Assembly (NCBI GenBank): GCA_039111535.1
Contig: JBCCIM010000027.1
Location: 1 to 43,173, forward strand
Direction: 5' to 3'
Origin: Bacteroidota bacterium
Lineage (GTDB): Bacteria > Bacteroidota > Rhodothermia > Rhodothermales > JAHQVL01
Length of the DNA: 43,173 nucleotides
Shown here piece by piece: positions 173-32,462 of this stretch. Numbering within the stretch: position 1 is the first letter of the stretch; each line of letters opens with the position of its first letter. Under the pieces are notes generated by a model. The model was not told the DNA's origin, ran no database searches, and saw nothing but the letters and a program-made list of their open reading frames with translations. The position numbers were made by a program, and so were the translations under genes.

Positions 173-1570
173 ATGGAAAGCAAAACGCGCAGTTGGAGAG
201 ACCGATTAAAAGGACAGGATAACCTGGCCCAGTTTATCCGCGGCTCAGGGGGTGGCTTTGCTATCAAGATTTTATCGACGGCGGTCATTTTTGCCTCCAC
301 GATGTCGCTCACGCGCCTCCTGGGCAAAGAAGAATGGGGGGCTTATTCATTTGCCATTGCCTGGCTGAGCACCCTCTTGATCATCGCCCGATTTGGATTT
401 AACAAGTCGGTCATCCGGTATGTAGCAGCCTACCGATCCAAGCAGGATTGGTCGCGCATAAGCGGCTTCATCAAGTACGGACAGCGGACCTCGCTTAAAA
501 TTGCAACAGGGCTATCGCTTTCGGTCGGACTTATCGTATTTCTCTGCCGGCCTTACATCATCAACAAGTACGGGGATGACGCATTTTTCAATTCCCTGAT
601 GATCGCGCTGATCTTTCTGCCACTGGTTGCGCGATTAGAAATCCAGGAAGGCATTCTGGATGGCTTTAAACGCGTGGTGCTCTCTCAGCTTTCCATGCGC
701 ACGTTACGGCCGGCGCTGATTGCAATCCTGCTGATTTCGATATATCACCTCACGGAGATTGGTCAGTTTTTGCGCCCCGAAGGCGACACAGTGATGCACG
801 CAGAGCTTGCGATCATTATCAACCTCTTTGCTACCATTTGCGCTGTCCTGCTTTCCTTCTGGCTAATCAGGCGAACGGTCCCAGGTGAAGTAGGCAAAGC
901 CAAACCAAGCTACGAAAAGAAAGAATGGCTCAGCACGTCACAGGATATGATGCTCACGTCGGGCTTCAACTACATCCTGATTTCTGCGGACAGCCTGATG
1001 CTTGGCTTGCTGATCGACACAGATGCCGTTGGTGTTTACCGCATTGCGTCACAGGTTGCAGTTGCCATTGTGATTGCTTTAACTGCCATGAACGGCATCC
1101 TCCACCCTATTGTGGCAGATCTGTACGCCAATAACAAAAGGCAAGAATTACAACGTATCGTTTCCATTGGTGCAAATGCAGTATTTGCCATTTCAATCAT
1201 TGGCGGGCTTATTTTGTATTTTTCTGCCGACTTTCTCCCTCTCTTGTTCGGGGCAGAGTATATTGAGCCAATTCCCTTGCTGCGGATCCTGATATTCGGC
1301 CAGATATTTAACGCCTGCGCCGGCCCAGCTGTATTATTGCTTAACATGACAGGTCACCAGCGAGACGCCGCCAAAATCATGGCATTTGGCGCTATCCTAA
1401 ATCTGGGCCTGAACGCAGTCCTGATTACCAACATGGGCATCAAGGGCGCAGCAATCGCAACCATCATAACAACATTACTGTGGAACATCGCAGCTGCACT
1501 GGTGGTGTGGCGCCGGCTTCGAATCGTCAGCTTTGCACTGTGGTGGCCACGCAATAAAAAATCATCTTAA
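173..1570 (+). CDS. Wzx-type polysaccharide flippase (MOP superfamily)
   Basis: A 465-residue, very hydrophobic protein with a basic N-terminus (about residues 1-25) followed by about a dozen membrane segments. The first segments lie at roughly 29-50 and 57-75 and the last close to the C-terminus. This length and layout match Wzx/RfbX-like oligosaccharide flippases of the MOP exporter superfamily, which move undecaprenyl-diphosphate-linked repeat units across the inner membrane. The ATG at 173 has only a weak GGAG at 155-158, too far upstream to be convincing, as is common in Bacteroidota. The sulfotransferase begins directly after its stop codon, so the two are surely cotranscribed. The WbaP-like initiating transferase at 14848 fits a Wzx/Wzy-type pathway. 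No polymerase (Wzy) is visible in the window. The family call is firm; the substrate is unknown. Confidence 0.88.
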   Translation: MESKTRSWRDRLKGQDNLAQFIRGSGGGFAIKILSTAVIFASTMSLTRLLGKEEWGAYSFAIAWLSTLLIIARFGFNKSVIRYVAAYRSKQDWSRISGFIKYGQRTSLKIATGLSLSVGLIVFLCRPYIINKYGDDAFFNSLMIALIFLPLVARLEIQEGILDGFKRVVLSQLSMRTLRPALIAILLISIYHLTEIGQFLRPEGDTVMHAELAIIINLFATICAVLLSFWLIRRTVPGEVGKAKPSYEKKEWLSTSQDMMLTSGFNYILISADSLMLGLLIDTDAVGVYRIASQVAVAIVIALTAMNGILHPIVADLYANNKRQELQRIVSIGANAVFAISIIGGLILYFSADFLPLLFGAEYIEPIPLLRILIFGQIFNACAGPAVLLLNMTGHQRDAAKIMAFGAILNLGLNAVLITNMGIKGAAIATIITTLLWNIAAALVVWRRLRIVSFALWWPRNKKSS

Positions 1571-2551
1571 GTGGCAGACGCTGTAGCACCCATATTCTTG
1601 TTTTCGCTTCCTCGCAGTGGCTCTACCCTGCTGCAGCGCATTCTCGCCAAACATGAGGAGGTCGACACAGCAGCTGAGCCCTGGCTACTGCTCCCCTTAT
1701 TCAGCACGCTCAGGAGCGACGGGATTTACACGAACTACGACCAGAATGCTGTTGTAGAAGCTGTCAAAGATTTCTACACCGCCATTGATGGCGGCAAGCC
1801 GGCGTTTCTGGATGAAGTCCGCCAGATGGCCCTCAACCTGTACGGCCGGCGCACCCAGAAAGGCGCAACCTATTTCCTCGACAAAACGCCCAGATATCAC
1901 CTCGTCGTTTCCGAAATTCTGGAGACATTCCCCGATGCCCGCTTCATTTTTCTGTGGCGCAATCCGCTCTCGATTATCGCATCGATGTTAGACACCTGGC
2001 ACCGCGGCCACTGGTATCTGTATTTCTTCAAAGTAGACCTTTTTGAAGGCTGGGCGAGGCTCGTGGAAGCCTATACCGCGAATCAAGACCGCGTGCTGGG
2101 TATCAATTACGAAGACCTTCTAAAAAACCCTGAAGACACCGCACAAAAGATCTGTGACTATCTAGATCTGCCATTCCAGCAAGCCATGATTGAGGACTTT
2201 CAAAGTGTTGACCTGCAGGGAGACATGGGTGATCCTACCGGGACAAAATCTTATAAGTCAATCAGCGACAAACCGCTCAACAAATGGAAAGGCTCGTTAC
2301 GTAACCCCATTCGAAAATCATGGTGCAAGAAGTACTTACATTGGCTTGGTCAGGAACGGCTAGCCGCCATTGGCTACGACCAGGCAGCGTTGCTTAAAGA
2401 GCTGAAAGAAACACCGACTTCCTTTAAACGCATGGGCGGTGATATGGCACGTATTTCTTATGGATTTCTTTACCAGTTTGCAGAATTACGGCTTTTTCAG
2501 GATAAACTTAAACAGCTCCCCAACCTGAAAGAGATCCATCCACATCTTTAG
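1571..2551 (+). CDS. PAPS-dependent sulfotransferase family protein
   Basis: A 326-residue protein opening with a hydrophobic strand and the 5'-phosphosulfate-binding loop LPRSGSTLL (residues 13-21). A DKTPRYH segment follows at 104-110, then the 3'-phosphate-binding region RFIFLWRNPLSIIAS (124-138). These are the hallmarks of the sulfotransferase fold, which moves a sulfuryl group from PAPS to a hydroxyl or amine. No signal peptide is evident, so it should act in the cytoplasm, before the flippase exports the repeat unit. The start is a GTG at 1571, directly after the TAA of the flippase, which suggests translational coupling. PAPS can be supplied by the Sat-CysC fusion at 10262. The acceptor is probably a sugar of the lipid-linked repeat unit, an inference from context. 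A protein-tyrosine or small-molecule acceptor is not excluded. Confidence 0.87.
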   Translation: MADAVAPIFLFSLPRSGSTLLQRILAKHEEVDTAAEPWLLLPLFSTLRSDGIYTNYDQNAVVEAVKDFYTAIDGGKPAFLDEVRQMALNLYGRRTQKGATYFLDKTPRYHLVVSEILETFPDARFIFLWRNPLSIIASMLDTWHRGHWYLYFFKVDLFEGWARLVEAYTANQDRVLGINYEDLLKNPEDTAQKICDYLDLPFQQAMIEDFQSVDLQGDMGDPTGTKSYKSISDKPLNKWKGSLRNPIRKSWCKKYLHWLGQERLAAIGYDQAALLKELKETPTSFKRMGGDMARISYGFLYQFAELRLFQDKLKQLPNLKEIHPHL

Positions 2552-2710
2552 AAAGAAACCAGTTGCTCGAATAAGGCTTTACGGTCTGTAATATGGTAAA
2601 GTTATGTACGCGCAAGCCCTTAACAATTAAGGATTTTTGTTAATTGCCGATACGCGAAAATAGCCGCCATGGTCTTTCAGCAATAACCCCGACCCTGTAA
2701 CGAATCTGAG

Positions 2711-2779
2711 GTGTAGTTGTAAAGCCGGATCACATCCTGCGATATAGTGCAATTATACTGTAGACCCACACAACTACAC
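2711..2779. repeat. Perfect 10-bp inverted repeat (GTGTAGTTGT...ACAACTACAC)
   Basis: The arms are at 2711-2720 and 2770-2779 with 49 bases between them. They could form an RNA stem with a long loop, or mark two inverted protein-binding sites. The TGTAGTTG core of the left arm also occurs at 88-95, upstream of the flippase gene. Confidence 0.5.
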
Positions 2780-2780
2780 T

Positions 2781-2814
2781 TGTTTGCAATTAACTTCCTG
2801 TGTTTGCAGTTAAC
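2781..2814. repeat. 14-bp tandem direct repeat, 20-bp period
   Basis: TGTTTGCAATTAAC at 2781-2794 is repeated at 2801-2814 with a single A-to-G change. The 20-base period places the copies on the same face of the helix. They lie about 130-165 bases before the next gene, a plausible place for an upstream activator site. Confidence 0.5.
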
Positions 2815-2944
2815 GCCGTTGCAGCAACGCACTTTTTTGATAGATTACGGACAGCCCCCCATTGGTACCCAGTGTTCTTTGTAAGTACTGATGGGATAAT
2901 TATTTTCGTTCAAAACGAGATTCCCGCCAAGCGTGCAAAATTCC

Positions 2945-3835
2945 ATGAAAGATAAATCCGTCAGGATTGCCGCCATCCTTGCTTCATACAACCGTAAAGA
3001 ACTGACCCTGCAGTGTCTGGACGCTTTGTTTGCGCAACAGTCTGATACGCTCGATATTCGGGCCTACTTACTGGATGATGGCAGTACAGATGGTACAGCC
3101 GAAGCCGTCACCGAACAGTTTGACAATGCTGTTGTCATTACGGGGGATGGTTCTTACTTCTGGAACGAGGGCATGCGGACTGCTTTTGCAACCGCACTTG
3201 ATGCCGGCGCAGACTATTACCTCTGGCTCAATGACGACACAACACTGGAGCCTGATGCCCTGCAACGCCTTGTGGATACACAACAAGGCCTTGAGCAAAG
3301 TGGACACCCCCTTTCAATTATTGTGGGCTCAGTCCAGGATCCAGAGACCGGTGACCTTACTTATGGCGGGATGAAACGCGACAGCAAGTGGCATCCCTTT
3401 CATTTTAAGCTGGTCACGCCCGGCACAGCACCAAAAAAGTGTGATGTCATGCATGGCAACTGCGTTTTGATTCCGCATGAGGTAGCAGCCCTGGCCGGCA
3501 ACATGGACGCCGGCTACTCGCATGCTATTGGTGACATCGATTACGCATTAAAAGCTGGTAGCAAAGGCGCATCCATCTGGATCGCACCCGGATTTGTGGG
3601 CACCTGCTCAACCAATCCTGTAGCTGGTAGTTGGCTGGATACATCCCTCTCGCTCCGTGAACGATGGAAACAAATGAGCGGACCAAAAGGCTTACCGCCT
3701 TCAGACTGGATGCTTTTCTCCAGGAAGCATGCCGGCATACTCTGGCCCGTTTTTGGCTCTCTACCCTACATACGCCTCGTTTTATCCTCGATAAAAGCTA
3801 AAATCCGCCCCCAGGAGCTACATCCCGTCGCGTAA
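2945..3835 (+). CDS. Family 2 glycosyltransferase (GT-A)
   Basis: A 296-residue protein with the classic GT2 start: a beta strand ending in ASYNRKE (13-19), the nucleotide-binding DDGSTDGT at 44-51 and the metal-binding LNDDT at 95-99. No membrane segment is evident, so it acts at the cytoplasmic membrane face, adding a sugar from a nucleotide donor to the lipid-linked repeat unit. A GTG at 2933 would add MQNS in frame. The ATG at 2945 was chosen because it opens directly on the conserved fold, but neither start has a clear ribosome binding site. A second GT2 gene follows 65 bases downstream. The sugar and linkage cannot be read from sequence; rhamnosyltransferase-like proteins are common in this family. 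Confidence 0.86.
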   Translation: MKDKSVRIAAILASYNRKELTLQCLDALFAQQSDTLDIRAYLLDDGSTDGTAEAVTEQFDNAVVITGDGSYFWNEGMRTAFATALDAGADYYLWLNDDTTLEPDALQRLVDTQQGLEQSGHPLSIIVGSVQDPETGDLTYGGMKRDSKWHPFHFKLVTPGTAPKKCDVMHGNCVLIPHEVAALAGNMDAGYSHAIGDIDYALKAGSKGASIWIAPGFVGTCSTNPVAGSWLDTSLSLRERWKQMSGPKGLPPSDWMLFSRKHAGILWPVFGSLPYIRLVLSSIKAKIRPQELHPVA

Positions 3836-3900
3836 TCCACACGAAGAAGTCAGCATTTGCATGCTGAGCGTTTTCAGCGAAAGAATAGAAATTGGCGGAT

Positions 3901-4770
3901 ATGGTTTACGTTGTTACACCTGTATATAACAGAAAGGAACTGACTGAACGGTTTCTTAAATGTTTATTTAATCAAACCTACAACGACCTCGAAGTTGTTA
4001 TAGTTGATGATGGATCAACAGACGGTACGTCTGACATGATCGAGACCCTGTATCCCCGCGTCACCCTCATCAAGGGCACCGGCGATCTGTGGTGGTCTGG
4101 CGGCACCAACGAGGGACTGCTCTATGTCATCGAAAAGGCAACCGATGATGATTTTGTATTGATCATCAACGACGACCTGGAATTCGAAAGCGACTATATC
4201 GAGAAGATTGTCAATTTTGCCAGGGAGCACCCGAAGACGCTCGTTGGCTCAACGGTTGTAGACATCGAACATCCCGACATTATCTGGGACGGCGGCCGCA
4301 TGACCAACTGGTTCACTGCCAAAGATCGGATCCTGAATGTTGGCCGGTCGCTGGGTGAGTTCAAGAAAGGCGCCTACTTTGAAGTGTCTCAACTCACGGG
4401 CCGCGGTATGCTCGCACCTGTTAGTGTATTTAAAGATGCCGGCATCTACGATGCTGTTCGATTCAAGCACCGGGGTGATACAGAATTTCCTGTCCGGGCT
4501 ACCAAATACGGCTATAAACAAGTGGTGTATTACGATGCCATTGTAAAGAGCCACGTAGACAATACGTATGAGTTTGATATCAAAGATGAGTATCACCTCA
4601 GCGACATCAAGCGCTACTTCTTTGATTTCAGGTCTTCTTTCTGGGTTAAGTTCAGGTTTAACTTTGCCCTAAAAACGGCAAAATCGCCGTTTCAGTTCAT
4701 AAGCTTCTTTACTTGCGATATGATTCGGATTACGGTTCATTTTTTGAAGCGTCTAAAATTGACCAGTTAA
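3901..4770 (+). CDS. Family 2 glycosyltransferase (GT-A)
   Basis: A 289-residue GT2 protein with TPVYNRKEL at the N-terminus, DDGSTDGT at 37-44, a GDLWWSGGTN segment at 61-70 and the metal-binding INDDLEF around 89-95. It is a distant paralogue of the gene just upstream and probably adds another sugar to the same repeat unit. An in-frame TTG at 3892 would add three residues. The ATG at 3901 was preferred because the conserved strand starts right after it. The C-terminal part (residues 235-289) is aromatic and basic and may touch the membrane. The donor sugar is unknown. Confidence 0.86.
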   Translation: MVYVVTPVYNRKELTERFLKCLFNQTYNDLEVVIVDDGSTDGTSDMIETLYPRVTLIKGTGDLWWSGGTNEGLLYVIEKATDDDFVLIINDDLEFESDYIEKIVNFAREHPKTLVGSTVVDIEHPDIIWDGGRMTNWFTAKDRILNVGRSLGEFKKGAYFEVSQLTGRGMLAPVSVFKDAGIYDAVRFKHRGDTEFPVRATKYGYKQVVYYDAIVKSHVDNTYEFDIKDEYHLSDIKRYFFDFRSSFWVKFRFNFALKTAKSPFQFISFFTCDMIRITVHFLKRLKLTS

Positions 4771-4791
4771 ACGTTTGCGACTTCACTGATC

Positions 4792-4831
4792 GTTGGCTGT
4801 GGCCAGGGTTATTATTTCAAGCCACACCAAC
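4792..4831 (+). other. Intergenic hairpin between two glycosyltransferase genes
   Basis: GTTGG (4792-4796) and TGTGGC (4798-4803) can pair with GCCACA (4821-4826) and CCAAC (4827-4831), giving an 11-bp stem with one bulged C and a 17-base loop. No T-tract follows, so it is not a standard intrinsic terminator. It may be a partial attenuator or an mRNA-stabilising structure. Confidence 0.35.
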
Positions 4832-4870
4832 CAACCGCAAATGTCATACTGCATCTTGTAGAAAAGATAA

Positions 4871-5860
4871 ATGAGTAAAAAACAAAAGAAAGGACGGTGC
4901 CTTTTTATTGTATGGAAAGGGTACCAGCGCAGGGCTGAAGTATTGGCGCCCCTTTTCGACGCAGATATCAAGTTTATTCCGCACCTCTTTCGAGGGAAAT
5001 ACTTGCGTCCGTTGGATTACCTGTACAAACTGATGGTGACGGTCATTTATATGATCCGCACGCGGCCGGCGTATGCCATCGTACAGGCACCGCCACATTA
5101 CGCCGCCCTCCCTCCTCTTCTGCTGGGAACGCCGTACATCATCGACGGCCACAATGGCATTTTTCAATCGTACTGGCACAAGCTGCCGCTCTTCTCCACA
5201 ATCATGAAGAAGTCCAAGGCGATCATTGTGCACAATCCTGAATTCCTGGCCCTCTTTGGCAAGACATTTCCCCAAAAGCCGTTCATCGTTGTTGCTGACC
5301 CGTTGCAGTACATTGAATCTAAAGACGTAAGCCGGACAGATAACCAAATTCTGTTTGTCTGCTCTTTTGACCATGATGAACCAATTGATGCAATCATCAA
5401 CACGATCGAACGCACGCCCGATTACAACTTTGTTATCACGGCTGATCCGAAGAAGTTGCCGGCCCAACAGCGGCAACGCCTCGAAGCCTGTGATAACTTG
5501 CGGCTCACCGGATTCCTGAGTACCAAAGAATACCATGACACGTTGTGCTCAAGCACCGCAGCTATAGCGCTGACAAACATGGTTGCCACGCAGCAGTCCG
5601 GTGCTTGCGAAGCGCTGTCATCAAATACGCCGCTCATTGCTACGCGCTCTACGCTCTCAGAAAAATTATTTGGCGATTGGGCGATTCTGGTTGACAACAA
5701 CGCCGACTCAATTGTCGCCGGCATCCGCACCCTTTCCCCAACAACGCTGGATTTAACATCGGAACGTAAAGACTGGAATAACGCAGTACAATCCGGCGTC
5801 TCCAAAGTAAAGCTGGAAGTACTCGGCGAATCAGAGCCAATTCCAGAAGAAACAATGTAA
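4871..5860 (+). CDS. Glycosyltransferase, GT-B fold
   Basis: A 329-residue protein with a two-lobed GT-B look. The N-terminal lobe has a basic, amphipathic stretch (residues 37-62, likely membrane-associated) and an acceptor-side segment VQAPPHYAALPPLLLGTPYI. The C-terminal lobe carries the donor-binding pattern QQSGACEALSSNTPLIAT near residues 239-256, matching the E-x-G-x-P-x-I type motif of retaining GT4-like enzymes. The first residues, MSKKQKKGR, are strongly basic. It lies between the GT2 pair and the secreted beta-helix gene in the same direction, so a role in repeat-unit assembly is likely. It is shorter than typical GT4 enzymes (350-400 residues), and the exact CAZy family is uncertain. 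Confidence 0.72.
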   Translation: MSKKQKKGRCLFIVWKGYQRRAEVLAPLFDADIKFIPHLFRGKYLRPLDYLYKLMVTVIYMIRTRPAYAIVQAPPHYAALPPLLLGTPYIIDGHNGIFQSYWHKLPLFSTIMKKSKAIIVHNPEFLALFGKTFPQKPFIVVADPLQYIESKDVSRTDNQILFVCSFDHDEPIDAIINTIERTPDYNFVITADPKKLPAQQRQRLEACDNLRLTGFLSTKEYHDTLCSSTAAIALTNMVATQQSGACEALSSNTPLIATRSTLSEKLFGDWAILVDNNADSIVAGIRTLSPTTLDLTSERKDWNNAVQSGVSKVKLEVLGESEPIPEETM

Positions 5861-5982
5861 AACACAAGCCCCTCCTTGCTATCTGCATGGAATTTCTCGC
5901 AGGCATGTGACAGAAAATAAGCCCCCCTTATCCTCTCTGGCACCATTCCTATCCACAAGATATACCTGCTTTATCCATCGCT

Positions 5983-8070
5983 ATGCGATCTACTTTTTGC
6001 CTCCTGCTTTTCATGTCTTTTGCCTCCACAGCCCAAGGCCAATCCTGTTATTTGCAGCAGGATTGCGGCCCCGGTATGTTGTGTGACGGCAATGGTAGTT
6101 GTCAACCCGTTCGTTCATTGCTAGACACTGGCAACAACACGCTCTACTGGGTTGACCAGGCCGGCGGAAACGATGCGTTTCCCGGCACAGAATCACAACC
6201 TTTCAAAACCATACAACGCGCCGTACAGGCTAACACCATTGATCCCGGAGACGCGGTCATTATTCGGGCCGGTACCTACTACGGACAGGTAAGTCCTGGT
6301 ACGGGTGGCACTGCCGGCAACCGGATTACCATTACCTCTTTCCCAGGGGAAGAAGTTATTGTTTCCGGTGCGATCAATCTTACGGGAAGCTGGACACAAG
6401 ACGGCAACGCCTGGCGCCTGAGCTGGCCTTATGAAGCGTTATGGCACCGGTATGAAGGCCCCAACGACTTGTTTGGCGAAGCACGCCGGCGCGACGTGCT
6501 CATTGCTGACGGGCAGATGCTGCAAGCCGTGTACTCGCGGGCTGATGTACGGGAGGGCACGTTCTTTCTCGAAGGGTCACCCTATAACCCGACCACCATG
6601 TACACCATGCTGCCGGGCAACAAAAATCCGAACAGTGCTTCCATGCAAACCAGCTTGTTGAATCACCTGTTCAACCCGTCCAACAACGAGCCAAGTTGCC
6701 GGTTTGGTAATGTTAAAGGCTTTTACCATTTGATTGGTATTACCTTCAGACATACGGCAAACGATGGACAAATGGGCGCAGTTTGCGCCGGCACCGAAGG
6801 TTCAATCATTGAGAACGTGACCGCTGAATGGACCAATGGCTCTGGCTTCCTGATCTCAGGCAACAACCACATCGTCCGCGGTGTTCGGGCATACCACAAC
6901 GGTATGAGTGGAATCCGTGGCAATATCTGCAACAACTGTGTGGTTGAACACTCAGAAAGCAAATTCAACAACTGGAAAGGCTACAAACCGTTCTGGGAAT
7001 CAGGGGGTGGTAAATGGCTGTACACGTCGAACAGTGTATTCAGAAATCTGGACTTCTCTGACAACGAAGGCCCGGGCCTGTGGCTCGACATGGACAACTT
7101 CGATAACATTATCGAGAACAACGTCTTCGACAATAACCTCGGCGCCGGCCTGTTTCTTGAGTGGACAACGGACCGCACCATTGTTCGCAACAATGTATTT
7201 ACACGCGCCCGCTATGCCTGGCCCACCTTCTATGGACACGGCTTGCTCATTCATGCAGCAAATGATAACATCGTACTGCATAACACCTTTATGAAAAATG
7301 AAGGTGGTGGTATGCGTATCCGTGCTGACGACCGGGACCGTGCCATCGGCAACAGGTATTACAACAACCTCTTTATTGCCAACACACTCATTGACTGGAG
7401 CAGCGACAGAAAGAGCAGTGAAATTTCGTTTGAAGAGCATAGTGGCGACGCTGATGCACGATCCAACAAAGGAGAAGGCAACGTATTTTGGTACCGTGGC
7501 TACTCCACACATGAGTACAATACATACCAGTACCGGACCAAAGGCTCCAATGGCAGCAACGTTGTGCGCAGCTCAACGCTTGCAGACTGGCAAAACAAAG
7601 CCTTAACCGATTATATGTCTTCGACGATACTTCCAGCTGAACCGCATGTGGTCGACACCACGGACCATGTGAACGGCTGGCGGCTGGCAGCTGAGTCGCA
7701 GGTCATCGGCAGAGGGGTTTCCCTCCCTGCTGACCTGACTCCGCTCCTGGTTGACTTTGATGGGGATCCACGCCCCGTCCAGGGTGCCGACGTAGGTGCT
7801 GATCAGTACAAGTTTGGCGAAATTGAGCCTCCGCCGCCGTCAGGCGTTTCAGGTGATGCTTCGGGCAATGGTCTTGTAACAGCGCTGGATGCTTCTCTTA
7901 TCTTGCAGCACGCAAGCGGGCTGGTTGATCTGGATGGCAATACGCATGCAGATGCATCGGGTGACGGCTCGGTATCTGCATATGACGCATCGCTTATTTT
8001 ACAATACATAACAGGCTTTCTCACCTGCCTGCCGGCAGATATAGCCTGTATGCCTGGCAAAAGATTTTAA
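5983..8070 (+). CDS. Secreted right-handed beta-helix protein with C-terminal dockerin
   Basis: A 695-residue exported protein. A signal peptide (about residues 1-19, ending STAQG) is followed by a short Cys-rich piece (21-41). A DUF1565/pectate-lyase-like opening is next (YWVDQAGGNDAFPGT, then an A-G-T-Y-Y-G-Q segment), and then a long run of parallel beta-helix turns rich in N-N and I-x-x-N patterns (about 240-470). A PPPPSG linker near 617 leads to a type I dockerin (about 623-680) with two calcium-loop repeats, GDASGNGLVTALDASLIL and ADASGDGSVSAYDASLIL. Beta-helix proteins are often polysaccharide lyases, hydrolases or C5-epimerases. Inside an exopolysaccharide cluster, editing or trimming the polymer after export is a reasonable guess. 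No cohesin partner is in the window. The fold is well supported; the enzyme activity is not. Confidence 0.85.
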   Translation: MRSTFCLLLFMSFASTAQGQSCYLQQDCGPGMLCDGNGSCQPVRSLLDTGNNTLYWVDQAGGNDAFPGTESQPFKTIQRAVQANTIDPGDAVIIRAGTYYGQVSPGTGGTAGNRITITSFPGEEVIVSGAINLTGSWTQDGNAWRLSWPYEALWHRYEGPNDLFGEARRRDVLIADGQMLQAVYSRADVREGTFFLEGSPYNPTTMYTMLPGNKNPNSASMQTSLLNHLFNPSNNEPSCRFGNVKGFYHLIGITFRHTANDGQMGAVCAGTEGSIIENVTAEWTNGSGFLISGNNHIVRGVRAYHNGMSGIRGNICNNCVVEHSESKFNNWKGYKPFWESGGGKWLYTSNSVFRNLDFSDNEGPGLWLDMDNFDNIIENNVFDNNLGAGLFLEWTTDRTIVRNNVFTRARYAWPTFYGHGLLIHAANDNIVLHNTFMKNEGGGMRIRADDRDRAIGNRYYNNLFIANTLIDWSSDRKSSEISFEEHSGDADARSNKGEGNVFWYRGYSTHEYNTYQYRTKGSNGSNVVRSSTLADWQNKALTDYMSSTILPAEPHVVDTTDHVNGWRLAAESQVIGRGVSLPADLTPLLVDFDGDPRPVQGADVGADQYKFGEIEPPPPSGVSGDASGNGLVTALDASLILQHASGLVDLDGNTHADASGDGSVSAYDASLILQYITGFLTCLPADIACMPGKRF

Positions 8071-8082
8071 TTATACGTTGGT

Positions 8083-9321
8083 ATGAAGGTACTGCTATCC
8101 GCATATGCTTGTGAACCGCACCGGGGGTCTGAAGAAGGCTTCGGATGGAACTGGTCCACACATTTGGCGCGAGAAGGACATGAGGTGTGCGTGCTTACCA
8201 GGAACTGGGCACAAGATAAAGTTGAGCGGGAAATGCAGGAAAACCCTATCCCTAATCTACGCTTTATTTTTGTTGATATTCCGGCCCGATACAAGCCGGC
8301 CATGAAAGGCATTTTCGGCGTATACGCCCATTACTTTTTATGGCAAAAAGCAGCATATCGGCAAGCGCAGCAGTTGCTTAAAACAGAAGACTTTGACCTG
8401 GCGCACCATGTAACCTGGGGCAGCCTCATTGGCGGCTCATGGCTGTGGCGCCTCGAAGACAAACCTTTTGTTTTTGGTCCGGTTGGCGGCGGACAGGTTG
8501 CACCCGACGCATTCAAGCCGTACTTCCCTACCCGGTGGCGCCAAGAGTCAATTCGGACCTATATCACAAAAAAGGTACTGCCTTCTTTGCCCTCAACGAA
8601 GAAAATGCTCCGGCATACTGCGCTCCTGCTTGCAACCAATAGCGATACCCTGCACATTGCAGAACAAATGGGTGCAAAAAAAGCCGAGCTCTTTCTGGAT
8701 ACTGGATTACCAGACCATTACTTTGCGGACACTGCAAAAGATGGTTTCACAGACAATCGGATGAACATTTTGTGGGTCGGCCGGTTGCTAGAAAGGAAAG
8801 CCATCAAGTTGTCACTGCAAGTATTGGCTAAATTGAATTTCCCTTTCCGGATGACCATTCTGGGTGACGGTCCGGAAGATGTATATGTTAATGATTGGAT
8901 CAGGGAAATGGGGCTTGCGGACCGCGTTGAATGGAAAGGACGCGTTCCCTGGGATGAAGTACAGCGCGCATACGAGCAAAACGAAGTCTTCCTGTTCACT
9001 AGCCTGCGCGACTCTTTTGGATCACAGTTGCTCGAAGCAATGAGTAATGGCCTGGCCATCGTTACGCTGGATCACCAGGGTGCACACGATTTTGTACCCG
9101 ATGGCGCCGGCATCCGCGTACCTGTCTCAACACCCGGGGCAACAATCAACAGATTGGCTGAAGCCCTAACCCATATTCATGAAAATCCGGAAAAGCTCCC
9201 GCTAATGAGCAAAACAGGGCTGGATTTTGCGCGACAGAACAATTGGACTGTCAAAGCTGCAGAAATGACAAAAATGTACCAGTCGGTAGTGAAGAATTTG
9301 CCGGCAAAAGCACTGCATTAA
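8083..9321 (+). CDS. Family 4 glycosyltransferase (GT-B)
   Basis: A 412-residue GT-B enzyme. The N-terminal lobe has the nucleotide-sugar family signature ACEPHRGSEEGFGWNW (residues 8-23). The C-terminal lobe has the GRLLERKAI motif, the TILGDGPED strand, and SLRDSFGSQLLEAMSNG, which contains the E-x7-E-type donor-binding region of GT4. The start lies only 12 bases after the beta-helix gene, so they are probably in one operon. It should transfer a hexose or similar residue onto the lipid-linked intermediate in the cytoplasm. The ACEP-x-x-G-SE opening is typical of GT4 members in exopolysaccharide clusters. Confidence 0.88.
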   Translation: MKVLLSAYACEPHRGSEEGFGWNWSTHLAREGHEVCVLTRNWAQDKVEREMQENPIPNLRFIFVDIPARYKPAMKGIFGVYAHYFLWQKAAYRQAQQLLKTEDFDLAHHVTWGSLIGGSWLWRLEDKPFVFGPVGGGQVAPDAFKPYFPTRWRQESIRTYITKKVLPSLPSTKKMLRHTALLLATNSDTLHIAEQMGAKKAELFLDTGLPDHYFADTAKDGFTDNRMNILWVGRLLERKAIKLSLQVLAKLNFPFRMTILGDGPEDVYVNDWIREMGLADRVEWKGRVPWDEVQRAYEQNEVFLFTSLRDSFGSQLLEAMSNGLAIVTLDHQGAHDFVPDGAGIRVPVSTPGATINRLAEALTHIHENPEKLPLMSKTGLDFARQNNWTVKAAEMTKMYQSVVKNLPAKALH

Positions 9322-9447
9322 TTATATTAACCGTTAATTTTCAGAAGGCTTTTCCTTTTCAGCATGAAAACCAGGCTGCTACGAAGATGAAGTAAGTTTG
9401 GTTGGATTTGATAATTTTGGATGCTCCTTCCTGCTTAGACAGGTCTA

Positions 9448-10215
9448 ATGATAAAGACACATAGGGACTATCGAGATATTTTAAATATGCACGTCGATGT
9501 GACCAGCTACCCAGATGCTGCTGGCAGGGTGGTGAATTGGGCATCAAATGGACAATCTCGATATGTCTGCGCGGCAAACGTGCACATGGTAATGGAAAGC
9601 CATGATGATATGGACTTCCAGAAAGTGGTCAACGGAGCTGACCTTGTAACCCCTGACGGTGTTCCGCTCGTCTGGGCTTTGAAATTTCTAGGCGTTTCTG
9701 AAGCCACGCGTGTATACGGTCCGGATCTTACCCTCCACGTGTGCAAACAGGCTGCTGAAGAAAATATCCCTATTGGTTTGTACGGCGGTACACCGGAAAG
9801 CCTCGAGGCTTTTGTCCAGTTCCTCGAAGCCAATTATCCGGGTATCCAGATAAATTGTAAAATTGCACCTCCCTTTCGCCCGCTTACGCCGGAGGAAGAC
9901 GTGCAATACACACAACAGATCAATGAATCGGGTGTCCGCATTTTATTTGTGGGGATTGGATGCCCAAAGCAAGAAAAATGGATGGCAGAGCATAAAGATA
10001 AGCTCTCTGCCGTAATGCTTGGTGTAGGTGCAGCGTTCGACTTTCATACGGGTCGTGTAAAGCAAGCACCTTCATGGATGCAACGTGTCGGACTTGAATG
10101 GCTGTTCAGATTACTGATGGAGCCCCGACGGTTGTGGAAACGGTACTTCAAGCACAATCCGCGATTTGTATTTCTTTTTATCAGACAAATGATTTTTGCC
10201 AAGGCACCAGGCTGA
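9448..10215 (+). CDS. WecG/TagA/CpsF family glycosyltransferase (GT26)
   Basis: A 255-residue protein carrying all hallmark blocks of GT26: AANVHMVM (42-49), NGADLVTPDGVPLVWALK (62-79) with the conserved aspartate at residue 65, RVYGPDL (88-94), and VGIGCPKQEKWM near 167-178. Family members add N-acetylmannosamine, N-acetylmannosaminuronate or glucose to a lipid-linked sugar, working at the inner membrane through a C-terminal basic tail. The tail here (about residues 210-255, rich in R, W and K) fits that. The ATG at 9448 was kept; an ATG at 9487 would also preserve the fold. It sits just upstream of the PAPS synthase gene in the same direction. Confidence 0.9.
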   Translation: MIKTHRDYRDILNMHVDVTSYPDAAGRVVNWASNGQSRYVCAANVHMVMESHDDMDFQKVVNGADLVTPDGVPLVWALKFLGVSEATRVYGPDLTLHVCKQAAEENIPIGLYGGTPESLEAFVQFLEANYPGIQINCKIAPPFRPLTPEEDVQYTQQINESGVRILFVGIGCPKQEKWMAEHKDKLSAVMLGVGAAFDFHTGRVKQAPSWMQRVGLEWLFRLLMEPRRLWKRYFKHNPRFVFLFIRQMIFAKAPG

Positions 10216-10261
10216 CAAACTGGCTGCATGCCAAAACCCTAAACGATAAACTAATAGACGA

Positions 10262-11983
10262 ATGAGTACCCAAACATTAATTGAACCTCATGGCGGTGAG
10301 CTTTGTGAGTTGCTTCTTACAGGTGATGAATTAGCAAAAGCAACAAAAGAAGCAATTAACTACCCTTCTATCACACTTTCAGCTCGTCAACTTTGTGACA
10401 TTGAATTGCTCTTATCTGGCGGTTTCTCTCCGTTAAAAGGGTTTATGTCTCAGGCCGACTACGACAGCGTGCTGGATAACATGCGTCTTGCAGACGGCAG
10501 CCTCTGGCCAATGCCGATCACACTCGACGTTGACGAAGAAACAGCCGGCAACCACAGCGCGGGCGAAAAAATTGCCCTTCGCGACAACACCGGTCTGCTT
10601 GTAGCAATTATCACTGTTTCTGACATCTGGTCTCCTGACAAAGCCAACGAAGCTGAAAAAGCATTTGGCACGCAGGACAAAGCACATCCAGCTGTTGCTT
10701 ACCTGTTCGACCAGGCTGGCAGCCACTACATCGGTGGATCTATCGAAGGCATCTCTATGCCAATCCACTATGACTTTCTCGACTTGCGTAAAACGCCGGC
10801 ACAGCTTCGCGCTGAGTTTGAAGCCAACAATGCAGATCGCGTAGTTGCTTTCCAGACGCGTAACCCAATGCACCGGGCGCACAAAGAGCTTACCGACCGC
10901 GCCGCAGCCGGTATCGGTGGCAGCCTGTTGATTCACCCTGTTGTTGGCATGACCAAACCAGGCGACATCGACTACTTTACACGCGTTCGTTGCTACAAAA
11001 AATTGATCGAGCACTATCCGGAAGGACGTGCAATGCTGAGCCTCCTTCCACTGGCCATGCGCATGGCTGGTCCTCGTGAAGCGCTCTGGCATGCTATCAT
11101 CCGTAAAAACCACGGGTGTACACACCTCGTTGTAGGTCGCGACCACGCTGGCCCAGGCAACGACAGCAACGGCGATCCAATCTACGGACCGTACGACGCA
11201 CAGGAACTGGTTACCAAATACCAGGAAGAACTGGGCATCGAAATGGTACCATTCCGCCTCATGGTTTACGCACCAGCAATCGATGGCTACAAGCCAATTG
11301 ACGAAGTGGAAGAAGGCGAAGAAACGCTGAACATCTCTGGTACAGAGCTGCGTCGTCGTCTCGCCGCGGGCGAAGAGATTCCTGATTGGTTCTCATACGC
11401 AGAGGTTGTGGCTGAGCTGCGCAAAACGCATCCGCCGAAAAACCGCCAGGGCGTTACGGTATTCTTCACCGGACTCTCAGGCTCCGGCAAGTCTACCATT
11501 GCGAACGCTTTGATGACAAAACTGCTTGAAGTAACAAGCCGGCCTGTTACGCTGCTTGACGGCGACGTGGTTCGTACGCATCTGAGCAAAGGCCTCGGCT
11601 TCTCAGCTGAAGACCGCTCAATCAACGTACAGCGTATCGGCTATGTAGCCAGCGAAATCACAAAACACCGTGGTATCGCCATCTGTGCACCGATTGCGCC
11701 ATACTATGCAGACCGCAAGGTGAACGAAGATCTCATCAACAGCTTCGGCGGTTACATTGAGGTATTTGTTGACGCACCATTGGCAGTTGTTGAAGAACGC
11801 GACACAAAAGGACTGTACGCCAAAGCACGCGCCGGCCTGATCAAAGGCTTTACGGGCATTGACGATCCTTATGAAGCGCCTGAAAATGCCGATGTTGTTT
11901 GCAAGACCGCTGATGAAACAATTGAGGAGAGTGCGCTTAAAGTGCTCAACAAGCTCTTTGAACTCGGCTACCTGGAGAAATAA
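10262..11983 (+). CDS. Bifunctional ATP sulfurylase / APS kinase (PAPS synthase)
   Basis: A 573-residue fusion. Residues 1-390 are a homo-oligomeric type ATP sulfurylase with QTRNPMHRAH (198-207) and GRDHAGPG (292-299). Residues 395-573 are an APS kinase with P-loop GLSGSGKS (404-411), DGDVVRTHLSKGLGFS (433-448), and the FVDAPL and GLYAKARAG segments. Both active sites look intact, so one polypeptide should turn sulfate and two ATP into PAPS through APS. The domain order is sulfurylase then kinase, opposite to animal PAPS synthases. No PAPS reductase or sulfite reductase gene is nearby, while a sulfotransferase is in the same cluster, so its product is probably used for sulfation instead of cysteine synthesis. 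The codon choice is noticeably regular, which suggests high expression. Confidence 0.95.
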   Translation: MSTQTLIEPHGGELCELLLTGDELAKATKEAINYPSITLSARQLCDIELLLSGGFSPLKGFMSQADYDSVLDNMRLADGSLWPMPITLDVDEETAGNHSAGEKIALRDNTGLLVAIITVSDIWSPDKANEAEKAFGTQDKAHPAVAYLFDQAGSHYIGGSIEGISMPIHYDFLDLRKTPAQLRAEFEANNADRVVAFQTRNPMHRAHKELTDRAAAGIGGSLLIHPVVGMTKPGDIDYFTRVRCYKKLIEHYPEGRAMLSLLPLAMRMAGPREALWHAIIRKNHGCTHLVVGRDHAGPGNDSNGDPIYGPYDAQELVTKYQEELGIEMVPFRLMVYAPAIDGYKPIDEVEEGEETLNISGTELRRRLAAGEEIPDWFSYAEVVAELRKTHPPKNRQGVTVFFTGLSGSGKSTIANALMTKLLEVTSRPVTLLDGDVVRTHLSKGLGFSAEDRSINVQRIGYVASEITKHRGIAICAPIAPYYADRKVNEDLINSFGGYIEVFVDAPLAVVEERDTKGLYAKARAGLIKGFTGIDDPYEAPENADVVCKTADETIEESALKVLNKLFELGYLEK

Positions 11984-12017
11984 TCGGCCCATCGGGTAGT
12001 TTTTTGATACTAGCATT

Positions 12018-12048
12018 GGCAAGACCCCATACCAACAGGGGTCTTGCC
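12018..12048 (+). terminator. Hairpin downstream of the PAPS synthase gene
   Basis: A perfect 11-bp stem, GGCAAGACCCC (12018-12028) with GGGGTCTTGCC (12038-12048), has a 9-base loop and is followed by a moderately T-rich stretch. It is a plausible intrinsic terminator for the PAPS synthase gene, although the T-tract is interrupted. Confidence 0.5.
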
Positions 12049-12058
12049 TGCTTGTTTG

Positions 12059-12083
12059 CTGCCCCTTCTTCCTGAAGGGGCAG
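12059..12083 (+). terminator. Second hairpin before ugd
   Basis: A perfect 10-bp stem, CTGCCCCTTC (12059-12068) with GAAGGGGCAG (12074-12083), has a 5-base loop and stands 10 bases after the first hairpin. No T-tract follows directly. It may back up the first terminator or form the 5' leader of the ugd mRNA, whose ATG is 38 bases further on. Confidence 0.4.
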
Positions 12084-12121
12084 TGCCATTTCAATTAATT
12101 ATTACCTTTACATATAGATTC

Positions 12122-13507
12122 ATGAATATTGCCATTGTTGGAACTGGATATGTAGGCCTTGTTTCTGGTACCTGTTTCGCTGAGATGGGGTATGATGTTG
12201 TTTGTGTAGATATTGATGAGCGAAAAGTCGAAAGTTTGTCAAATGGCAACATCACCATTTTTGAACCAGGGCTCGAAGTCTTTTTTGAACGCAATTTGCG
12301 TGAAGGACGCCTCCGCTTCACAACTGAGCTGCTTGAGGCAGTTAAACACGCTGAGATCATCTTCCTGGCACTCCCTACACCGCCTTCTGAAGATGGATCA
12401 GCAGACCTGTCCTATGTACTCGGCGTTGCCGGCAACATTGCCGATCTCCTGATCGCTGACCCTGCACTCGGATATCGGGTGATTGTTAACAAAAGCACAG
12501 TACCTGTTGGGACTGCTGACAAAGTTAGCAACATCATGGCCAAAGCCGGCCTCACCCCAGGCAAACACTTTGATGTAGTTTCCAATCCGGAATTCTTGCG
12601 TGAAGGCGTTGCAGTAGACGACTTCATGAAGCCTGAGCGCGTAGTAATCGGCGCATCAAGCGAACGCGCAGCTGACCTGATGAAGCTGCTTTACGAACCT
12701 TTTGTACGCCAGGGCAACCCGATCCTGGCCATGGATGAGCGTTCAGCAGAAATGACCAAGTATGCTGCGAACTCTTTCCTCGCAACAAAAATCACGTTCA
12801 TGAACGAGGTAGCCAACCTCTGTGAACGGGTGGGTGCAAACGTTGACAACGTGCGCGTGGGCATTGGTCTCGACAGCCGCATCGGAAAATTATTCCTCTA
12901 CCCAGGCATCGGTTTTGGTGGTAGCTGTTTCCCAAAAGACGTAAAAGCACTCAAGCAGACAGCTGATCAGTACAGCTACGATTTTGCCATTTTGAACGCT
13001 GTACTCAATGTTAACGATGCACAGCGCCGAATTTTGGTAGACAGAATTCTGGAGCAATATGACGGTGATGTCTCCGGCAAGAAGTTTGCCGTATGGGGCT
13101 TGGCTTTCAAACCCAATACGGACGACGTGCGTGAGGCACCGTCTCATGTCATCATTGAAGAATTGATCGAGCGTGGCGCTTCCATTACGGCATTTGACCC
13201 GGAAGCCATCGAGACAACGAAGGATGTATTGGGTGACAAACTGGGATATGCTGAAGATCGGTACTCCCTGCTTCACGATGCTGATGCATTGATCATCTGT
13301 ACTGAGTGGCACGAATTCCGCCGGCCAGATTTCAAAAAAATGCACAGCCTGATGAAGGCTCCCGTTGTATTTGACGGACGTAACCTGTTCAAGCCAGAAA
13401 GAATGGCTGAACTTGGATTTGAATATTATTCCATTGGCCGGCCGCATTACCCTGCTGATGCGTCTGATGCAGTACTAACAGACGGTAGCAACGTAAATCA
13501 TTCTTAA
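12122..13507 (+). CDS. ugd: UDP-glucose 6-dehydrogenase
   Basis: A 461-residue cytoplasmic enzyme that oxidises UDP-glucose to UDP-glucuronate with two NAD+. The N-terminal Rossmann motif is [12 protein letters not shown] (5-16), followed by STVPVGT (125-131) and NPEFLREG (155-162). The catalytic loop [10 protein letters not shown] (264-273) has the nucleophile Cys269. The C-terminal UDP-binding part includes [17 protein letters not shown]. The reading frame is open back to 12044, but the extra 26 residues are poorly conserved in style and run through the hairpin at 12059-12083; the ATG at 12122 opens directly on the Rossmann strand. The UDP-glucuronate decarboxylase gene follows after 4 bases. 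Confidence 0.96.
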
Positions 13508-13511
13508 GGAG

Positions 13512-14462
13512 ATGAAACGAACTTTGGTTACAGGCGGCGCCGGATTCCTCGGATCACATCTATGTGATCGCTTCATTAATGAAGGACACGAGGTCATTTG
13601 CGTCGACAACTTTATTACTGGCCGCCCCGACAACATTGCCCATTTAATTGGCAATCCAAACTTTTCTTTTATCGAGCATGATGTGACCAACTTCATTTAT
13701 GTGGAAGGTCCGCTCGATTACATATTGCACTTTGCCAGCCCGGCCTCCCCTATTGACTACCTGAAGTATCCAATCCAGACACTGAAGGTAGGTGCGCTCG
13801 GTACACACAAGGCCCTTGGCCTTGCAAAAGCCAAAAAAGCGCGCTTCTTGCTTGCATCAACAAGCGAAGTATACGGAGACCCGCTGGTACACCCGCAGTC
13901 AGAAGAGTACTGGGGCAACGTGAATCCCATTGGGATGCGCGGGGTGTATGATGAAGCAAAACGTTTTGCTGAAGCGATGACGATGGCGTATCACCGCTAT
14001 CATGATGTTGAAACACGCCTCATTCGCATCTTCAACACGTATGGCCCGCGAATGCGCCTCGATGATGGCCGGGCATTGCCTACCTTCATGAAGCAGGCCC
14101 TTGAAGGCGAGCCTATCACTGTATTTGGAGATGGCAGCCAGACGCGTTCTTTCTGCTACGTTGCAGACCTCGTTGACGGTATTTACCGCTTGCTGATGAG
14201 CGATGAAGTTGAGCCGGTGAACATTGGCAATCCCGACGAGATCTCTATTCTCGACTTTGCACGCGAAGTTGTAGAGCTCACAGGAAGCCACAGCGAAATC
14301 ATCTTCAAAGATTTGCCAGCAGACGATCCCAAGGTACGCCAGCCGGATATCAGCAAAGCAAAAAGCAAGCTCCAGTGGTCACCGCAGGTGGACCGCAAAG
14401 AAGGGCTGCGACGCACGCTTGCGTTCTTCCAGAATGAAGAAGTAGCGCTTACATCCGCTTAG
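13512..14462 (+). CDS. UDP-glucuronate decarboxylase (UDP-xylose synthase), extended SDR
   Basis: A 316-residue extended short-chain dehydrogenase. It has the NAD-binding [10 protein letters not shown] (7-16), [15 protein letters not shown] (73-87), STSEVYGDP (116-124), and YWGNVNPIG (133-141), a stretch characteristic of UXS enzymes. The catalytic YxxxK is YDEAK (146-150). It should convert UDP-glucuronate from the preceding gene to UDP-xylose. The 4-base gap shows an operon with ugd. An AAGGAG at 13506-13511 overlaps the ugd stop and touches the ATG with no spacer, which is too close for a normal Shine-Dalgarno, yet the Rossmann strand begins at residue 4, so this start is secure. A C4-decarboxylase making UDP-4-keto-pentose is the main alternative. 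Confidence 0.92.
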
Positions 14463-14486
14463 GCAAACGGTATCATTTCGTTATTC

Positions 14487-14523
14487 ATGCGGATTCAAGC
14501 TTGTTCAGAGCTTGAATCCGCAT
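14487..14523 (+). terminator. Strong intrinsic-terminator-like hairpin after the UXS gene
   Basis: ATGCGGATTCAAGCT (14487-14501) pairs perfectly with AGCTTGAATCCGCAT (14509-14523), a 15-bp stem with a 7-base loop. The following bases are TTGTATG, so the T-tract is short. It lies 24 bases after the stop codon. Confidence 0.6.
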
Positions 14524-14554
14524 TTGTATGCACTGTTGAATCCGCATTGTATGC
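14512..14554. repeat. Short direct repeat TTGAATCCGCATT(T)GTATGC
   Basis: Two copies, at 14512-14531 and 14536-14554, differ by one T. The first copy includes the right arm of the 14487-14523 hairpin, so the hairpin arm appears to have been duplicated. Confidence 0.55.
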
Positions 14555-14847
14555 GCTGGTGTACCAAAGGCGCGTTCAATGTTTGCATAAACAGCGCACC
14601 AAAGGCCACGGGGATTATGCGCTATGGCGCATCCTGTCTACACCTAAAGGATGAGTCATCCTATCAACGCGTTTTGTATCTTCCTACTGCATGTCCGCTT
14701 GACCGTAGCAGGCATTGTGTAAGCAGACTGGCGAAACAGTGACGGGCTTAACACAAAACTGCAGCATAGCGACCAGGCGACCCGCATCTTCGTTCTGATT
14801 TTTCACTTCCCAGGAAGCTCCCCACTTTCAATTACGTAGTTTAGCGA

Positions 14848-16305
14848 ATGGAACTTGTAGAGGTACTTTCCGAGCGGTCGTTCTTCGACCGACTTCCTCG
14901 ATCAGGAGAAAGGCTTGTATCATATTGGAAACACCGATTCCAGAATGTCATCGTCTTAGCGGCAGGCGACATGCTGGCTATTGTGTTTGCTTTTCTTGTA
15001 GCCGGTTCTATTCGTTTTTTCTGGCAAGGCGCGCTGCTTATTCCCGAATGGGCCTGGTATCTCATTCCAGCCTGGTGGGTTGGCGCATCTATCACCCAAT
15101 TACTGCCTAGCTGGGGCCTTGGGCCCGTGGAAGAACTCAGGCGCACCACCCTGTTGCTTATCGTGGTGTTTGCAGGTGCTGCTGTTGTGCTCTTTATCAG
15201 TAAAATGTCAGAGTCAGTAAGCCGTATCACCCTTACCCTGTCCTTTTTGGTCAGTGTTGTATCGGTGCCATTTATGCGGTGGCTCGTAAAACGAACCCTT
15301 ATTTCTTTCAACCAGTGGGGCCTACCCACGGTTATTTACGGTGGTGGCGATTTTGCCGAACAGGTTGTTGGCTTCCTGCAGGAAGAAAAAGGCCTGGGTT
15401 ACAATCCGATTGGCATCTTTGATGATGACCCCAATTCCTGGAATACTGACCTCTTAAATGTACCCATTGAAGGCGGTACCAACCTCGTCACACCGGAAGC
15501 CTCCGTTGCTATCCTGACCATGCCAAGCATGAGCAGTACACGCGCTGCTGAGCTCCTGGAAGGTCCGTTGTCGTATTACCGGTCTGTGCTCATCATACCG
15601 AACATGTTCGACACGCCGTCGCTGTGGGTAAAGCCACGTGACCTCAATGGCATACTCGGTCTTGAAATCACGTCGAACCTGATCAACCCGTTTTCGCGGC
15701 TGGCCAAACTAATTTTCGACTACCTGCTTGTGTTGTTGAGCGTACCGTTTTGGTTTCCCATCTGCGCAGTGCTTTATATCCTCATCAAGCTTGAAGATGG
15801 CGGCGATCCGTTTTTCAGACAAGAACGCGTTGGGCGCGGCGGCCAGAAATTCAAAACCTATAAATTCCGCACCATGGTACCCAACGCGGAGGATGTCCTT
15901 CGCAAGAAGCTGGAAGAAGACGAAGAAATGCGCCAGGAGTGGGAGACGTTTTATAAGCTGCGTAACGATCCGCGCATCACGAAGATCGGCAAGATCTTGC
16001 GCCGGCTTAGCCTTGACGAGTTACCACAGCTCATCAACGTATTACGCGGCGAGATGTCACTTGTAGGCCCTCGACCTCTGCCACAGTACCACAGCAACGA
16101 ATTGCCACGCCGTGTCCGGGAATTGCGCGAACGCGTACGACCAGGCATTACAGGCCTATGGCAGGTCTCTGGCCGCAGTGACTCCGGCAATGAAGGCATG
16201 GAGCAATGGGATCCCTATTACGTGCGCAACTGGTCGCTCTGGCTTGATGCCGTGATTCTGATCCGCACCATCACAGCTGTAGTCAAAGGCTCAGGCGCTT
16301 ACTAA
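14848..16305 (+). CDS. WbaP-like undecaprenyl-phosphate sugar phosphotransferase
   Basis: A 485-residue inner-membrane enzyme. Four membrane segments lie in the first 160 residues. A Rossmann-like middle domain with VIYGGGDFAEQVVGFL follows, then a membrane-inserted hairpin at about 288-312, and the catalytic bacterial sugar transferase domain. Its motifs include FFRQERVGRGGQKF, KTYKFRTM, SLDELPQLINVLRGEMSLVG, PRPLP and RPGITGLWQVSGRS. It starts glycan assembly by moving a hexose-1-phosphate (galactose or glucose) from a UDP-sugar onto undecaprenyl phosphate. Five-segment members of this type include WbaP and WcaJ. It is the last gene of the + strand polysaccharide run; the preceding 385 bases suggest its own promoter. 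Confidence 0.93.
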   Translation: MELVEVLSERSFFDRLPRSGERLVSYWKHRFQNVIVLAAGDMLAIVFAFLVAGSIRFFWQGALLIPEWAWYLIPAWWVGASITQLLPSWGLGPVEELRRTTLLLIVVFAGAAVVLFISKMSESVSRITLTLSFLVSVVSVPFMRWLVKRTLISFNQWGLPTVIYGGGDFAEQVVGFLQEEKGLGYNPIGIFDDDPNSWNTDLLNVPIEGGTNLVTPEASVAILTMPSMSSTRAAELLEGPLSYYRSVLIIPNMFDTPSLWVKPRDLNGILGLEITSNLINPFSRLAKLIFDYLLVLLSVPFWFPICAVLYILIKLEDGGDPFFRQERVGRGGQKFKTYKFRTMVPNAEDVLRKKLEEDEEMRQEWETFYKLRNDPRITKIGKILRRLSLDELPQLINVLRGEMSLVGPRPLPQYHSNELPRRVRELRERVRPGITGLWQVSGRSDSGNEGMEQWDPYYVRNWSLWLDAVILIRTITAVVKGSGAY

Positions 16306-32227: not shown

Positions 32228-32462
32228 ATGCTTTTAATAACTCTGCCTTACACAATGGGGGTCAATATGTTACCCTGCTTCATTTGGGAAATCAAGCCAA
32301 ACCTCCTGTGGCTTACAAATTGATTCAAGATCCGTACAGATACCTGCATAAAAGTCGTTTAAAAATAATATATTGCGTTTATCAAGCAGCATCACAAGGT
32401 CCGATGGACCTAAACCTGCCAGATGCTGCATCCTTGACGATACGTGCTTGCTCCCCACCAGT

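Follow-up and report, generated by a model that had tools for sequence, protein, structure and literature searches.

A dockerin-tagged beta-helix protein with a GH120-like fold is encoded in a conserved exopolysaccharide operon of a Rhodothermales bacterium and may act on the cell's own polymer

The window analysed here, a stretch of 43,173 nt that makes up all of contig C27 in a genome of 6.59 Mb and 355 contigs (G000), encodes a beta-helix protein with a C-terminal dockerin within an operon for exopolysaccharide (EPS) synthesis. We propose that this protein is an exported GH120-like glycosidase of the EPS operon that trims the cell's own EPS and is kept on the cell surface by cohesins with a T9SS anchor, a reading to which we assign a probability of about 0.52. 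The enzyme would be functionally part of the operon, trimming or remodelling the polymer made there, and its dockerin would dock in a calcium-dependent manner onto cohesins carried by other proteins of that cell. These partners would be a four-cohesin scaffoldin and small one-cohesin proteins, brought to and kept on the surface by T9SS, such that the dockerin would substitute for the T9SS sorting domain of the enzyme's own paralog. By trimming the EPS as it emerges, the enzyme may control how long the chains become or how they are released, the role that PelA has for Pel (PMC9894940). The original prediction, made from the DNA alone, held that such a protein could edit the exported polymer while tethered at the surface, and both parts of that claim are well supported by the genomic context, from which we infer the tethering as well as the action.

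The gene at 5983-8070 (+) is an open frame with an ATG start and a product of 695 aa, in which a signal-type stretch, a four-Cys motif, a right-handed beta-helix, a Pro linker and a type I dockerin follow one another (Table 1). Pfam matches are to Beta_helix (2.4e-19), NosD (4.8e-10), DUF1565 (2.8e-6) and Dockerin_1 (1.3e-8), the last of these (PF00404) scoring 35.3 bits over residues 624-676 versus a curated cut-off of 22.9. The dockerin also matches solved dockerin structures, and the EF-hand-like Ca loops are intact in both repeats (D625/S627/N629/D636 and D657/S659/D661/D668). A T9SS C-terminal sorting domain (PF18962/TIGR04183) was not found in this protein, whereas its paralog has one. 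Searching the genome collection with the single window protein returned one relative, JAHQVL010000135.1 of Rhodothermaceae bacterium MAG.022.

Table 1. Coordinates of the dockerin gene's parts and of the EPS genes in the window
Feature	Position	Strand	Basis
Probable Sec signal peptide MRSTFCLLLFMSFASTAQGQ	5983..6042	+	sequence reading; helix 2-16 of model
Cys-rich motif C-x5-C-x5-C-x5-C, residues 22-41	6046..6105	+	present in most same-family homologs
Right-handed beta-helix catalytic-type domain, GH120-like, residues 51-607	6133..7803	+	Pfam, model, fold and profile match
Lys344, invariant, aligns with XylC Lys358	7012..7014	+	alignment, profile
Asp369, invariant, aligns with GH120 nucleophile Asp382	7087..7089	+	alignment, profile, PMC8954004
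Glu393, invariant, aligns with GH120 acid/base Glu405	7159..7161	+	alignment, profile, PMC8954004
Linker QYKFGEIEPPPPSGV	7804..7848	+	sequence; model confidence low at residues 611-620
Type I dockerin, residues 623-677, two Ca-binding repeats	7849..8013	+	Pfam, loop residues
C-terminal tail with C682-x-P...C689 motif	8014..8067	+	motif common to most dockerins of these genomes
Wzx-type flippase	173..1570	+	Pfam
Sulfotransferase (Sulfotransfer_3)	1571..2551	+	Pfam
GT2 glycosyltransferase	2933..3835	+	Pfam
GT2 glycosyltransferase	3892..4770	+	Pfam
GT4-like glycosyltransferase	4871..5860	+	Pfam, weak, just under cut-off
GT4 glycosyltransferase, 12 nt downstream of dockerin gene	8083..9321	+	Pfam
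WecG/TagA/CpsF glycosyltransferase	9448..10215	+	Pfam
ATP sulfurylase / APS kinase fusion (PAPS supply)	10262..11983	+	Pfam
UDP-glucose 6-dehydrogenase	12044..13507	+	Pfam
UDP-glucuronate decarboxylase-like (UDP-xylose synthesis)	13512..14462	+	sequence and synteny
WbaP/WcaJ-type initiating sugar transferase	14848..16305	+	Pfam

The EPS genes all lie on one strand, from 173 to 16305, the upstream end of the cluster lying outside view because the window is the entire contig, and the next co-directional gene starts 12 nt after the dockerin gene. The operon combines a sulfotransferase, its own PAPS supply, a UDP-glucose dehydrogenase and UDP-xylose synthesis, and is syntenic in three genera; the gene at 13512..14462 is one which we take, from its sequence and synteny, to be UDP-glucuronate decarboxylase-like. 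A sulfated polymer containing uronate or xylose is therefore the likely product of this gene complement. A sulfatase-like gene, so named from its sequence alone, is located at 32373-34013 on the same contig, beyond the EPS run. The EPS operon with a dockerin-tagged helix in the identical place was also observed in genomes G030, on one contig, and G029, in which the helix-dockerin gene is split over the ends of two contigs. As this position is kept in two other genera, the presence of a dockerin gene in the EPS cluster is not due to chance. Combined with the Pfam dockerin over cut-off and the EPS neighbours, this synteny bears out the dockerin-tagged secreted beta-helix protein that the original prediction had placed in an EPS cluster.

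The helix, as distinct from the dockerin, is not restricted to these genera, being found in 18 genomes of other families. A WbaP-type EPS initiating transferase adjoins it in 13 of the 17 other-family genomes whose surroundings were read, WecG is nearby in one, and no dockerin occurs on the other-family helix proteins that were read. WecG and the helix share one reading frame in at least two genomes (G101 and G086). These WecG/TagA and beta-helix frames (L081 8053-10320 and L082 7308-9644) would join a cytoplasmic enzyme to an exported fold or may represent two genes read together, and in a further genome (G047, L073 7768-12632) two beta-helix homologs adjoin one WbaP-type transferase. As the association with EPS is general and the helix proteins read from other families have no dockerin, this family seems to have added the dockerin to an EPS link that would predate it.

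An AlphaFold2 model of the helix domain, built from 18 sequences (mean pLDDT 84.5, pTM 0.81), has as its top PDB fold match by Foldseek the GH120 beta-xylosidase XylC (E 3.8e-19, TM 0.56/0.61), with GH136 lacto-N-biosidases (1.4e-11), BT_1002, pectate lyase Pel9A and AlgG well behind. A profile of the helix family matches XylC with an E of 5.5e-27, and the second stretch of this match, which is weak alone (i-E 0.0016), aligns Lys344, Asp369 and Glu393 with Lys358, Asp382 and Glu405, the equivalence of Asp369/Glu393 to the GH120 pair being one of profile alignment. Asp382 is the GH120 nucleophile and Glu405 the acid/base, and three other GH120 enzymes lost their activity when the corresponding residues were changed to Ala (PMC8954004). 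Lys344, Asp369 and Glu393 are invariant in 18/18 aligned homologs with identities down to ~25%, such that a conserved, GH120-aligned cluster of catalytic type is indeed present in the helix. The window protein thus resembles XylC of Thermoanaerobacterium saccharolyticum (PDB 3vst) in its right-handed beta-helix, its equivalent Lys/Asp/Glu and in having it as best profile and fold match, but differs in possessing a signal peptide, a Cys-rich motif, a dockerin and an EPS-operon location, and identity is ~14% over the whole fold. From the model and the alignments we regard the helix domain as a retaining glycosidase of GH120-like type, which may be a xylosidase or transglycosidase. Characterised GH120 enzymes are beta-xylosidases acting on xylo-oligosaccharides (PMC8954004, PMC6887791), and the probable synthesis of UDP-xylose by the operon would agree with a xyloside substrate.

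The activity had at first been left as that of a lyase, a hydrolase or an epimerase; the hydrolase is now favoured, while fold ranks and profile alignment speak against a lyase of the PL6 or PL9 type and against a C5-epimerase. A lyase or C5-epimerase acting in the same place and with the same tether would account for the PL9, AlgG, chondroitinase B and PL6 structures among the fold matches, and for an operon that makes UDP-glucuronate, uronic acids hence being likely in the polymer. However, these fold matches have E of 1e-8 or worse versus 3.8e-19 for XylC, and the sequence matches are limited to an N-terminal stretch that does not cover the catalytic region, making such an activity extremely unlikely. 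Beta-helices are also able to bind polymers, and a non-catalytic helix could hold the polymer while the dockerin/cohesin link fastens EPS to the surface, a geometry suited to capsule retention. In this case, invariance of Asp369 and Glu393, which align with the GH120 pair, in 18 sequences to ~25% identity would not be expected, and a mere binder is therefore very unlikely.

That the window itself contains no cohesin counts against a surface-held glycosidase. A profile search of the whole genome, as had been suggested at the outset, detected six PF00963 cohesins and ten dockerins over the cut-off, not counting weak PF00963 hits on C48 and C4 or weak dockerin hits on C79 and C48. With cohesins in the genome and a catalytic-type residue set in the helix, neither of the two outcomes named in advance as refuting the original prediction was obtained, and that interpretation is partly supported. 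The six cohesins are spread over four proteins, every one of which has a T9SS sorting domain at its end. One of these is 890 aa long and combines four cohesins with DUF4397 (C25), two are small one-cohesin proteins, and the fourth is a cohesin-dockerin protein. Scaffoldins are thus represented by the four-cohesin protein at C25 and a six-cohesin protein in G030 (C59), alongside conserved dockerin proteins; by Pfam, no carbohydrate-binding module was found on the scaffoldin, only cohesins, DUF4397 and the T9SS tail. SprA is present in the genome (2.2e-87), as are at least 150 T9SS sorting domains. In the three genomes G000, G029 and G030, representing three genera and scanned with locally built profiles, a T9SS domain ends all 16 complete cohesin proteins and is absent in 19 of the 23 proteins having a dockerin but no clear cohesin. 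This contrast (16/16 versus 4/23) yields a Fisher p of 1.5e-7, a value which overstates independence because orthologs, and thus related proteins, are counted. The four T9SS-bearing dockerin exceptions possess an extra stretch between dockerin and T9SS tail, which is weakly cohesin-like in one of them.

The absence of a T9SS domain from the window protein, together with its Sec-type signal, is also consistent with a periplasmic housekeeping enzyme that clears or edits stalled EPS, the dockerin meeting cohesins in transit or serving otherwise. AlgL, which has this role for alginate, provides a precedent (PMC8829089), and a search for type II secretion in the genome identified a single secretin gene of 459 aa whose neighbours match no Pfam family and which is not clearly type II. 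Conversely, all cohesin partners bear surface-sorting domains and the paralog has one replacing the dockerin; the dockerin therefore tracks with surface sorting, and a purely periplasmic enzyme is distinctly unlikely. What also counts against the surface-held glycosidase is that, according to PMC11285876, cargo of T9SS needs a C-terminal domain of its own, which these dockerin proteins do not have. Passage of the outer membrane by another route, or carriage together with a cohesin protein, may be possible. Cohesin and dockerin could even constitute a split secretion signal, in which dockerin enzymes without a T9SS domain bind cohesins in the periplasm and cross the type IX translocon as cargo of cargo; we regard this proposal as tentative and rather doubtful. 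If true, EPS-editing and degrading enzymes alike would be exported and anchored via cohesin proteins. The passage of dockerin enzymes without a T9SS signal across the outer membrane becomes a testable question with this system.

Most dockerin proteins belong to families common to several of the three genera, comprising PL14 with F5/8 type C, DUF5060 with a collagen-binding-like or apiosidase-like domain, PA14, beta-helix with F5/8 type C, and proteins that give no catalytic Pfam match. Cellulases and hemicellulases were not detected by Pfam among the scanned dockerin proteins, PL14, DUF5060 and others being observed instead. Dockerins number 10, 6 and 10 per genome in the three genera versus 0 to 3 in the rest of the order, indicating that the expansion is specific to this family. 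The system is cellulosome-like because most of the other dockerin proteins look polysaccharide-degrading or -binding (PL14, DUF5060/apiosidase-like, PA14). A non-cellulosomal use of the dockerin, as originally suggested, thus applies to one or two members in EPS operons, but not to the dockerin system of the genome, which is not devoted to EPS. The degradative or binding domains of its companions (PL14, DUF5060/apiosidase-like, PA14, F5/8 type C) would also suit a window protein that is a catabolic, cellulosome-like subunit degrading foreign (e.g. algal) polysaccharide, its place in the EPS operon being incidental or allowing the cell to recycle its own polymer as a nutrient. A helix-dockerin homolog in G030 (C117) is located near ABC-transporter permeases and not in an EPS locus, and the window protein's own paralog at C252 is likewise outside EPS loci; such homologs count against EPS trimming, as they fit a glycosidase but allow a catabolic role. 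However, the gene stays in the middle of the EPS operon across three genera, and dockerin-free homologs of other families adjoin the EPS initiating transferase or share a frame with WecG, so that we consider a catabolic subunit unlikely and retain the EPS-trimming glycosidase as the preferred reading.

On this enzyme, a dockerin and a T9SS sorting domain can take each other's place. The paralog at C252 is 68% identical over residues 1-607, beyond which a Gly-rich linker and a T9SS domain replace the dockerin, and G030 contains a T9SS-tagged copy (C279) plus two dockerin-tagged copies. In a maximum-likelihood tree, two T9SS-tagged and four dockerin-tagged copies are interleaved, with the C252 paralog among dockerin-bearing homologs; parsimony requires at least two tag changes, although bootstrap on the key branches reaches only 89 to 94%. 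In G030 (C117, L070 6578-10309), a cohesin-cohesin-dockerin-T9SS gene is directly upstream of the beta-helix-dockerin gene, the two being 6 nt apart.

Non-cellulosomal cohesins and dockerins have reportedly long been known, Peer et al. being said to have described them in 2009. In ANME archaea and syntrophic sulfate reducers, non-cellulosomal cohesin/dockerin proteins are linked to biofilm and discussed with polysaccharide synthesis genes; there they are proposed adhesins, and the relevant portion of that account describes no EPS-operon enzyme (PMC10553843). A T9SS-anchored scaffoldin with dockerin enzymes was inferred earlier in Cloacimonadota (Ca. Stygibacter), which shares with the present system a tandem-cohesin scaffoldin with a T9SS C-terminal domain and secreted dockerin enzymes, but which has chitinase, GH57 and peptidases for biopolymer breakdown and CBMs on the scaffoldin (PMC8542988). 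Here, in contrast, the scaffoldin has DUF4397 and no CBM was found on it, and dockerin enzymes occur within EPS-synthesis operons. The clostridial cellulosome is similar in its type I cohesin/dockerin pairs, multi-cohesin scaffoldin, carbohydrate-active cargo and adaptor-like cohesin-dockerin proteins, whereas the present system is found in a double-membrane cell with T9SS anchoring and a C-x-P...C tail, and no cellulase family was detected among the scanned dockerin proteins. Polymer-cleaving enzymes encoded in biosynthetic operons, as the window gene is within its conserved EPS operon, are well known from PelA, PslG, PgaB and the lyase AlgL; the window enzyme differs in having a dockerin, none being described for those four (PMC9894940, PMC9075953, PMC5933820, PMC8829089). 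A literature search that covered few subscription journals, and so does not prove absence, found no account of an EPS-synthesis operon encoding a dockerin enzyme and none of dockerin/T9SS tag exchange; both appear to be new. The cohesin/dockerin plug would thereby be shifted from the breakdown of plant polymer of foreign origin to what is likely a part in building and shaping the matrix of the cell itself, suggesting that the plug-and-socket of the cellulosome is reused to place an enzyme trimming the cell's own polymer. The genomes also supply cohesin and dockerin modules of a lineage that is unexplored, together with what may be a family of EPS-active glycosidases.

A second dockerin gene of the genome (C18, L026 6866-9334) is also in an EPS-type locus, accompanied by Wzy_C, asparagine synthase, two GT4, a hexapeptide transferase, two fucosyltransferase-like genes and a WecA-like transferase. 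Its ortholog in G030 (L131 1-2442) is followed by GT4-like and WecA-like genes with fucosyltransferase-like frames between them, as named from sequence. Dockerin genes in EPS loci thus amount to 2 of the 10 in the genome, which is small-number evidence. The C18 protein has no catalytic Pfam match, matched nothing in the PDB beyond its dockerin by phmmer and profile, and gave a pLDDT of 34.7 by AlphaFold from two sequences; a PL8-like alpha/alpha-barrel was considered as a candidate fold, based on sequence and predicted helices only. In a search of the order, its homologs occurred in three genomes only. A tail of the form C-[FLM]-P...C directly follows nearly all dockerins, most proteins ending at or near it, and possibly forms a disulfide loop. 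A further conserved dockerin family without catalytic Pfam match is represented in the window's genome at C76 (L025 3954-6233) and by a relative in G030 (L128 2879-5563), the former copy carrying a CxxCH heme-type motif.
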